A stretch of 64,000 nt of DNA, from contig NZ_JADQDB010000005.1 in the NCBI RefSeq assembly GCF_015694405.1, positions 148,589 through 212,588 of the forward strand, in the 5' to 3' direction. This DNA is from Pelagibacterium limicola (GTDB lineage: Bacteria; Pseudomonadota; Alphaproteobacteria; Rhizobiales; Devosiaceae). The notes beneath the pieces were generated by a model. That model was not told where the DNA came from. It did not search any database and saw only the letters and a list, made by a program, of their open reading frames with translations. Positions 61,106 to 62,657 of this stretch are shown here, piece by piece (position 1 is the first letter of the stretch; each line of letters opens with the position of its first letter). A program made the translations under genes and the position numbers.

Positions 61106-62002
61106 TCAATGGGCGCATCGCCCTCGGCCTTCCCGGCTCATGATATAGATCGAGCCGGCAACGATCATGGCGGCACCGGGCCAGAAGGTCACATCCGGTG
61201 AAAAACCGAAAACGATCCAGCCCAGGATGATGTTGAGCGGCAGCTTGAGATCCTCGAACGGCTGAAGATAAGCCGCATCCGCTGAGGCATAGGCCCGGGT
61301 GAGCACATATTGCGCAGCCGCTGTCAGAAGTCCGGCCGCCAGCAGCACGAGCCAACCCTCGAGGGGCGGCATTTGAAGGCCCGACCCCAAATAGAGCGCA
61401 AAATTGATCGGTGTGAGGAGAAGCAGAAGATAGAGCGCGATGGAATCGGAGCGCTCGAAGCGTGTGAGCTCCTTGGTTATGAGCGAGGCTCCCGCCCAAA
61501 GTGCAGCCGCAAGCACCGGCAGCACGGCGTGCCAGGTGAAGGTTTCAGACCATGGCGCGATGATGATCAGCGCGCCGGCAAAGCCGAAGGCTGTGGCGCC
61601 GACACGTGCCAATGTCACGGTTTCGCGCAGAGCGAGGGCGGCGCCGGCCAGAACGAAGAAGGGCGAAGTCATGGAAAGCGCAATCGCTTGCCAGAGCGGC
61701 ACATGGGCCAGCGCCATGACCCAGACCTGCACACCCGCCGCCGCCAGGACGATGCGAACGAGATGCAGCATGGGGCGCCCGGTGCGCATGGCCGAAAGGC
61801 CACGCCGCCAGACGAGCGGCAGGACAAAGAGAAAGCCAAAGAAATACTGCCAGAAAGCCGTTGCGGTCGACGAGATGCCGTTGACCATGCCGGCCCACTG
61901 AACCGCGACATTGACGCCGGCAAAGGCAATTCCGGCCAAGAGCATGAGACCTGCACCTGTAAGGGCGGGGCTCGATTTGAAGTAAGAGGTCGTCTGGGTC
62001 AC
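61106..62002 (-). CDS. ribN: EamA/DMT-family riboflavin transporter RibN
   Basis: A 298-residue inner-membrane protein of ten predicted TM helices in two EamA repeats (GLMLLAGIAFAGVNVAVQW opens the first; LWAGASLITKELTRFE opens the second). RibN riboflavin importers of Rhizobiales are DMT proteins preceded by FMN riboswitches, which is what is seen here at 62110-62252; that context makes riboflavin the likely substrate. The start is GTG at 62002 with AAGGA upstream; the long upstream frame reads through the riboswitch and is not coding. Confidence 0.85.
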   Translation of the reverse strand: MTQTTSYFKSSPALTGAGLMLLAGIAFAGVNVAVQWAGMVNGISSTATAFWQYFFGFLFVLPLVWRRGLSAMRTGRPMLHLVRIVLAAAGVQVWVMALAHVPLWQAIALSMTSPFFVLAGAALALRETVTLARVGATAFGFAGALIIIAPWSETFTWHAVLPVLAAALWAGASLITKELTRFERSDSIALYLLLLLTPINFALYLGSGLQMPPLEGWLVLLAAGLLTAAAQYVLTRAYASADAAYLQPFEDLKLPLNIILGWIVFGFSPDVTFWPGAAMIVAGSIYIMSREGRGRCAH

Positions 62003-62006
62003 GTTC

Positions 62007-62053
62007 TCGATCCTTTCGCTAACCACCAGTGACCTCAGGGGTTGCGGGATCGA
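62007..62053 (-). promoter_or_regulatory. Predicted RBS-sequestering hairpin of ribN
   Basis: On the minus strand TCGATCC (62047-62053) is fully complementary to GGATCGA (62007-62013), which contains the ribN Shine-Dalgarno. The helix extends inward by CGC-AACC against GGTT-A-GCG. This would hide the ribosome-binding site, making it the expression platform of the FMN riboswitch. No terminator-like U-tract is seen, supporting translational control. Confidence 0.6.
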
Positions 62054-62109
62054 AGACCGCAGGCCCGAACGCGCGCGAAGACTCGCGGACGCACGGCCGG
62101 TCCAAATCC

Positions 62110-62252
62110 CGTTCTCTTCCATCCGGACTATGACCGTCGGCTTCGGAATCGCACCGAATCTGCTGACCCTTTCCAACAGGAAAGGCGCTCGCGGGCTTCG
62201 GGCATTGGAGCCCGTTACCGCCGGTGGGGACTTCCACCCCGCCCTGAGAACG
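62110..62252 (-). ncRNA. FMN riboswitch (RFN element)
   Basis: Read on the minus strand, the conserved RFN blocks appear in order: CGTTCTCAGGGCGGGGTG, AGTCCCCACCGGCGGTAA, AGCCCGCGAGCGCC, GGTCAGCAGATTCGGTG, GATTCCGAAGCCGACGGT, and CATAGTCCGGATGGAAGAG followed by AACG. The outer P1 arms (CGTTCTC / GAGAACG) pair. It sits ~107 bp upstream of ribN. FMN binding is expected to reduce transporter synthesis. Confidence 0.95.
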
Positions 62253-62330
62253 TCTATGCGGCACTTCATCGTGAAGCGCCGATGAAATAGATAGCGCCGC
62301 GGATATTCGGGATCAAGCACTTTAAGCCAA

Positions 62331-62364
62331 CAAAAAAGGACCACCCGGATTTCGAGTGGTCCTT
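62331..62364 (-). terminator. Terminator of the minus-strand small unit
   Basis: AAGGACCAC / GTGGTCCTT, a perfect 9 bp stem with an 11-base loop. Read on the minus strand it is followed by TTTT (T6 in total counting the stem end), while the plus-strand side has no T-tract. It insulates ribN's riboswitch from the transcript arriving from the right. Confidence 0.85.
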
Positions 62365-62421
62365 CCATGATACCGTCACGCAAAGAGTGACTGAACCATC
62401 AGATGGTTCGGAGGAAGAAGA

Positions 62422-62499
62422 TCAAAGCGCCGAGGGCTGCCTCGCCGCTATCACCTCACACCCAAAGCCGCTCCCGCCTGCGCGGATCTCACTAGACAT
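62422..62499 (-). CDS. 25-residue ORF with near-perfect Shine-Dalgarno
   Basis: The ATG at 62499 is preceded, one base away from its end, by AAAGGAGGTGATCC (62501-62514), complementary to essentially the whole anti-Shine-Dalgarno tail of 16S rRNA. The peptide starts MSSEIRAGG and ends RQPSAL; no family is recognised, and it has no TM helix. Such a strong initiation site on so short an ORF suggests a leader peptide, a small protein, or a ribosome-binding regulatory RNA. Confidence 0.45.
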   Translation of the reverse strand: MSSEIRAGGSGFGCEVIAARQPSAL

Positions 62500-62657
62500 T
62501 GGATCACCTCCTTTCAACTGGTTGAAAACGGTTACAATGCTGCCTGCGTTCTTGATGCATGACAAGCCCATATCGACCGGGGATCGGCGCGAAAGCGCAG
62601 TTCACAAATCGGTTTTTCTTACCGATAATGCGCGCGCTGATCGGGCGGCGCCCGCTT

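Follow-up and report, generated by a model that had tools for sequence, protein, structure and literature searches.

The closest described relative of the element considered here is CC2171, a Caulobacter sRNA whose family, RF01867, Rfam classifies as an sRNA gene. In our literature search, the family appeared only in one Rfam table and one sRNA list, and the available text of these two sources mentions no reading frame for CC2171; in the accessible parts of the literature, the search likewise found no description of the ORF or of the extended Shine-Dalgarno (SD) sequence of the element. MH_s33 of Mesorhizobium huakuii is annotated as RF01867, which is also the family nearest to our element (PMC5596092). 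According to the available text of that study, RNA-seq products were obtained for every non-riboswitch candidate except MH_s6 (34 of 35), so that MH_s33 is expressed; the same text discusses neither a function nor an ORF for it.

The rnTrpL/peTrpL system of Sinorhizobium (PMC10117765, PMC7298713) is likewise a small RNA with a translated mini-ORF, but, as described in the available text, it is leaderless, derives from the Trp attenuator, encodes a functional peptide and has no SD, unlike the element in our window. The anti-SD sRNAs SmelA075 and RS0680a, which have CCUCCUCCC loops, share with the element an anti-SD stretch in a structured small RNA; they differ in being present in several copies per genome, and the available part of the source describes no extended SD of their own (PMC3927594). 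Long pairing between SD and 16S rRNA is found in the extended SDs of Staphylococcus aureus (PMC13009471), where, as far as the available text goes, it is a general feature of messages, whereas here it concerns a single element, and SDs play little part in initiation in the bacteria that carry it. According to the accessible text of PMC4117421, SDs are little used for initiation in Caulobacter (24.6% of CDSs), and ribosomes there pause on internal SDs. It is for this reason that a single, ultra-long and conserved SD is notable. Identity with two other described RNAs was rejected. SmelC289 adjoins prolyl-tRNA synthetase according to the available text (PMC3927594), whereas the one Rhizobium element checked (L099) has other neighbours. 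PmaR was rejected on its range and interacting sequence as given in the available text of PMC6234868, since it occurs only in Agrobacterium and a close Rhizobium and its interacting sequence has no anti-SD.

The window, that is, the whole stretch of DNA that was analysed, comprises 64,000 nt from Pelagibacterium limicola. Inspection of the sequence places a complete small transcription unit, running from promoter-like hexamers to a terminator, on the minus strand at 62332-62565. Its parts, in window coordinates, are as follows.

62560..62565 (-), -35-like hexamer TTGTCA, separated by 17 nt from the -10-like hexamer, with the same spacing in relatives; predicted from sequence
62537..62542 (-), -10-like hexamer CAGCAT, 19 nt upstream of AAC; the window's own match is weak
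62512..62527 (-), palindrome TTTCAAC-CA-GTTGAAA within the 5′ leader; not conserved
62500..62515 (-), extended SD GAAAGGAGGTGATCCA, 16 nt complementary to the 16S tail
62501-62514 (-), 14-mer SD AAAGGAGGTGATCC, the core of the extended SD
62422..62499 (-), mini-ORF MSSEIRAGGSGFGCEVIAARQPSAL, ATG to TGA, 25 codons plus stop
62460..62465 (-), TTGGGT, a YTGG motif within the ORF that is complementary to the ATCCAA of the start-codon region (62499-62504)
62418..62456 (-), hairpin with a CAGC loop, which takes in the ORF's 3′ end and its stop codon; double-sided changes in 5 of 14 pairs
62410..62414 (-), CCTCC, complement of GGAGG (62507-62511)
62393..62409 (-), hairpin GAACCAT-CTG-ATGGTTC; predicted fold, covariation in the genus
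62375..62391 (-), hairpin GTCAC-loop-GTGAC; predicted fold
62364..62370 (-), TCATGGA, with which the codons following the start are proposed to pair at long range (P1); the proposal has support in two other classes
62332..62365 (-), terminator hairpin plus T6; within the genus, double-sided changes in 5 of 14 pairs

The inventory of the preliminary description (palindrome, 14-base SD, 25-codon ORF, CCTCC, three hairpins and T-tract) is found in full on the minus strand, and its view of a stand-alone, structured small transcription unit whose SD is extreme holds. A lack of conservation or covariation was named there as a refutation; the outcome was the opposite, as the element is conserved in relatives and its hairpins covary. 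Because of this conservation, we regard the element as beyond chance. The palindrome is the exception: it is present, but within the genus the 7-bp palindrome at the leader, which contains CAAC, occurs in the window only, and a palindrome of at least 6 bp is found there in just 2 of 192 relatives. It was rejected as a functional site.

The preliminary description recognised no family for the element. A cmscan search gives a match to RF01867 of 42.3 bits (E 1.5e-6 in 6 kb), and the alignment spans the whole model, positions 1-159. Since this score stays below the gathering score of 75 bits, and the match without the SD leader amounts to 19.6 bits (E 0.016), the alignment makes the window element a diverged relative of CC2171 rather than a filed member. 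In the alignment, it shares with CC2171 the SD and the start, the leader 5′ of them, a proposed long-range helix and the hairpin at the 3′ end, and differs in that the middle pieces are shorter or missing. In its own genome, the window element is the sole good match to the model. Among 61 relatives, 48 match at E ≤ 1, 40 at E ≤ 1e-3 and one over the cut-off; 6 of 14 control genomes also match, and weak ones among the 48 may be chance. For other alphaproteobacterial elements with the same leader, 6 of 18 scanned loci pass the gathering score.

The range of the element was examined with patterns that favour the SD and start, and all element counts given here are counts of related sequences, not of independent events. 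An exact 19-mer, consisting of the SD, the start and TGTC, was searched in named genomes and occurs in at least 118 stretches from Hyphomicrobiales, Rhodobacterales, Caulobacterales, Rhodospirillales, Sphingomonadales and others. The exact pattern, of a kind that overlooks diverged members, is present in 37 of 385 genomes of the class Alphaproteobacteria. With two mismatches allowed, 102 of 199 genomes of the order match, always with one copy, and the reversed control pattern matched once. A search of the phylum returned 24 of 299 genomes, all within the class (24/86, against 0/213 outside it). By these searches, the element is single-copy and widespread in Alphaproteobacteria.

A looser collection, for which ATG or GTG was required and identical sequences were merged, holds 192 distinct elements. 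We sort them by the start of the peptide into classes whose labels (WIN, MSSE, VSHC, VSR, BRA, DEV and AZO) are our own. Four Azospirillum-type MSHGA elements, with ORFs of 56-59 aa, are probably another gene and were left out of the terminator/P1, promoter and YTGG counts. L088 (in a record named SAR92 cluster, Gammaproteobacteria) and L124 sit in the MSSE and VSHC bins though they resemble another short type. They share the SD, GTGTCTA and a hairpin with a T-tract directly after CACTGGGAG, and their frame enters the terminator without a stop; they are perhaps a minimal, nonstop version, or chance.

The 16S tail of the genus, GCGGCTGGATCACCTCCTTTC, is present as an exact match in 2 of 13 genus genomes; in the window's own genome, this end of 16S is not assembled. 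The extended SD is complementary to this tail over 16 nt (-29.4 kcal/mol), and its 14-mer core is present as a single copy in the whole 3.47 Mb genome. In the 102 matches, 15 SD positions carry 59 substitutions, counted as sequences rather than events and under a pattern that permitted at most two mismatches; 49 of them replace a Watson-Crick pair with 16S by a G-U pair, and 10 break the pair, half of these at the last position. A general bias towards transitions would favour A to G and C to T, but the G and T positions, at which a transition breaks the pair, changed only three times. At the level of sequence comparison, this shows the pairing of the SD with 16S to be under selection.

We assign a rough probability of 0.45 to the reading that the element is a stand-alone, single-copy, ribosome-gated small RNA gene related to CC2171, in which ribosome loading, and not the peptide, would matter. 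A 30S subunit would dock on the long SD through 16 nt of the 16S 3′ tail and, once bound, would open the start hairpin. Initiation would then compete with self-pairing of the start region, contributed by UUGG or CUGG in the ORF and, in some classes, also by CCUCC or a mimic of the 16S tail. The ribosome would start the mini-ORF (14 to 30 codons), cross the structured body, stop before the terminator and leave. Loading would be the regulatory step that opens the fold, and the benefit would lie in the RNA itself: loading may set how stable it is or how far its C/U-rich anti-SD stretch is available to other messages. The conserved features suggest that ribosome binding itself could be the function. 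We infer that the mini-ORF is translated, and a dual-function sRNA design appears plausible.

The element's RNA is predicted to fold more stably than any of its 200 dinucleotide shuffles (z = -3.7). Across 11 distinct genus sequences, 97.6% of the cells in the covariation test pair, and 11 pairs show double changes against 5.4 in shuffles (0/500); every slide of the partner lowers all measures. The covariation support derives from the stop-codon hairpin, the GAACC hairpin and the terminator. A consensus terminator scan called no terminator at the window element; our own scan found terminator-like hairpins in 178 of 188 relatives examined. The long-range helix P1 was examined by swapping partners, ten elements without a terminator-like hairpin being omitted. 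Cognate pairing is better in 41 of 50 MSSE elements, and in VSHC it reaches -10.6 kcal/mol versus -5.4 kcal/mol against other classes. The swap gave no support in VSR, BRA, DEV or the window's genus, the last of which is without variation.

Helix 2 of the genus, in which ATCCAA pairs with TTGGGT within the ORF, is paired in 100% of cells and hardly varies. Among ATG elements, TTGGR occurs in 34/58 (13.1 expected) and CTGGR in 7/58 (13.3 expected), while GTG elements carry CTGGR in 87/130 (25.9 expected). TTGGR is also present in 38 GTG elements, nearly all of them VSR (Rhodobacterales), via a G-U pair, and 6 of the 7 GTG elements of MSSE have neither motif. That the YTGG type follows the type of start codon is suggestive, although founder effects can yield such a link. 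Because the start codon type matches its UUGG or CUGG complement inside the ORF, we propose that the start site folds back on the frame. Further mimics of the 16S tail are class-specific, occurring as CTGGRN..CCTC in 34/70 VSHC elements (0.7 expected) and as CAYCTCC in 24/39 VSR elements (0.2 expected).

Pairing of CCTCC with the unit's own SD, as first suggested, is present in the predicted fold, but masking in the genus does not rise above shuffles. The energy for opening the SD exceeds that of shuffled controls in only 6/11 genus, 24/70 VSHC, 24/51 MSSE and 0/6 DEV elements, and duplexes between the SD and downstream sequence do not surpass those of shuffles, either in the listed elements of the genus or in the DEV average. 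Masking does exceed the controls in 36/39 VSR and 11/11 BRA elements, and in BRA the SD is strongly folded away (opening energy 14.1 versus 7.0 in shuffles). Self-masking of the SD was rejected as a general rule, since it holds in VSR and BRA only.

A different explanation, which we consider unlikely, is that the element is a messenger for a functional micropeptide, the strong SD yielding much of a short product. The start and stop are indeed conserved. The start codon in the 102 matches is ATG (57) or GTG (45) and never another, other codons being within the allowed mismatches, and the base that precedes it is freely variable. ORF length lies between 14 and 33 codons in all but five of the 192 elements; it is 18 codons in 39/39 VSR (Rhodobacterales-type) elements, which end at this fixed position in TAA, TAG or TGA, and 14 codons in 11/11 BRA (Bradyrhizobium-type) elements. 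There are also recurring short motifs, for example, VSRxxLERGVGT (18 aa) and MSSE..EQPS, and Schrader et al. 2014 report, in the available text (PMC4117421), that two earlier predicted Caulobacter ncRNAs are translated. However, coding-type substitution was not found in any class tested: the synonymous share in frame 0, observed versus expected, is 0.314 vs 0.296, 0.333 vs 0.303 and 0.237 vs 0.263, and the three codon positions are equally variable. By eye, no alignment is apparent between peptides of different classes, the tail of the G004 peptide is frame-shifted within the genus, and the recurring motifs fall on RNA hairpins or on stretches that mimic 16S. The substitution pattern gave no sign of protein-level selection on the ORF, although RNA constraint could mask a weak one, and a conserved micropeptide is not supported. 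Since start and stop are kept and coding-type substitution is absent, the plain reading of these alignments would be that start and stop matter and the peptide does not. In Bradyrhizobium loci (L061, L067, L072 and others), a 14-codon frame, VSYxKRCHLAGIAR, is nearly invariant in DNA.

It is also conceivable, and in our judgement doubtful, that the element is a trans-acting sRNA whose CCTCC pairs with the SDs of other messages, the ORF being a by-product of an SD that hides the seed. CCTCC is present in 7/11 elements of the window's genus (1.0 expected) and in 6/6 DEV elements, and the Rfam type of CC2171 agrees with such a role. The available texts describe Rhizobiales sRNAs with CCUCCUCCC loops (PMC3927594) and the use of an anti-SD motif by SisA of Caulobacter (PMC12559287). 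Against this, CCTCC shows no clear enrichment in MSSE (8/51 vs 5.0 expected) or VSHC (17/70 vs 13.7 expected), and the conserved start and stop codons are left unexplained. The same codons weigh against the idea of a trap or decoy, in which the RNA would do no more than tie up free 30S subunits through its 16-nt complementarity, thereby damping translation. The complementarity does span nearly the whole single-stranded 16S tail, and the changes in it keep pairing, but neither a start codon kept in 102/102 matches nor a fixed stop position would be required of a decoy; we hold this explanation to be very improbable.

The genomic setting varies. The gene upstream of the element encodes SulP (Pfam) in the window, a LysR regulator at six loci of the genus (one Pfam-checked) and a membrane protein without a Pfam match at five (two of them, L021 and L082, on the same contig); in most genus members an EamA gene lies downstream. 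Promoter-like hexamers just upstream score above their own shuffles in 164 of 180 relatives, a count that omits one element with <60 nt upstream, and the usual place of the -10-like hexamer is -18 or -19 relative to AAC. Because the neighbours vary and these hexamers lie upstream, the element would be a gene of its own; an origin in the sulP 3′-UTR, as had been suggested, was rejected, since the upstream gene is another one in 11 genus loci while the element stays. GANTC, the CcrM methylation site, occurs in 54 of 187 upstream 60-nt regions against 23.5 expected from shuffles, kinship being ignored, and the excess possibly reflects a link to the cell cycle.

In the VSR class (L034-L149, Rhodobacterales), the fetched flank holds a gene with an RF-1 domain (ArfB-like ribosome rescue) at 33/39 loci, often directly downstream; L065 (Hyphomonadaceae) and L117 have an RF-1-domain gene nearby too, in the other orientation. 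The neighbour at L046 is an RNase R-like gene and that at L133 a translational GTPase, RF3-like. In the window, an FMN riboswitch (RF00050, 117 bits, 62107-62255, minus strand) precedes the EamA-family gene at 61106-62026, which is likely a riboflavin transporter. That the element is a cis-acting leader (attenuator) of the downstream gene is the least probable explanation, for although mini-ORF, hairpins and terminator look attenuator-like, and ArfB-like and EamA genes recur beside it, the downstream gene varies between clades and, in the window, the EamA gene is preceded by a separate FMN riboswitch that lies beyond the terminator.

The ribosome-gated small RNA gene can be extended to a bolder model, to which we give a low probability: an RNA that senses free 30S subunits throughout the Alphaproteobacteria. 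Within the RNA, a mimic of the 16S tail (CUGGAUC..CCUCC, whole or in part) would hold the start region, the true tail would compete for it, and translation, independently of the peptide made, would switch the RNA between two folds and thereby change how it acts on other messages.

Should ribosome loading be the signal, the element would be a compact natural readout of free ribosomes or of the state of initiation, and the uncharacterised CC2171 family would gain a reading frame, a testable function and a range well beyond what the Rfam model finds at its cut-off. SD-led initiation is little used in Caulobacter, according to the available text of PMC4117421, yet the class keeps one element whose SD complements the 16S tail almost completely.
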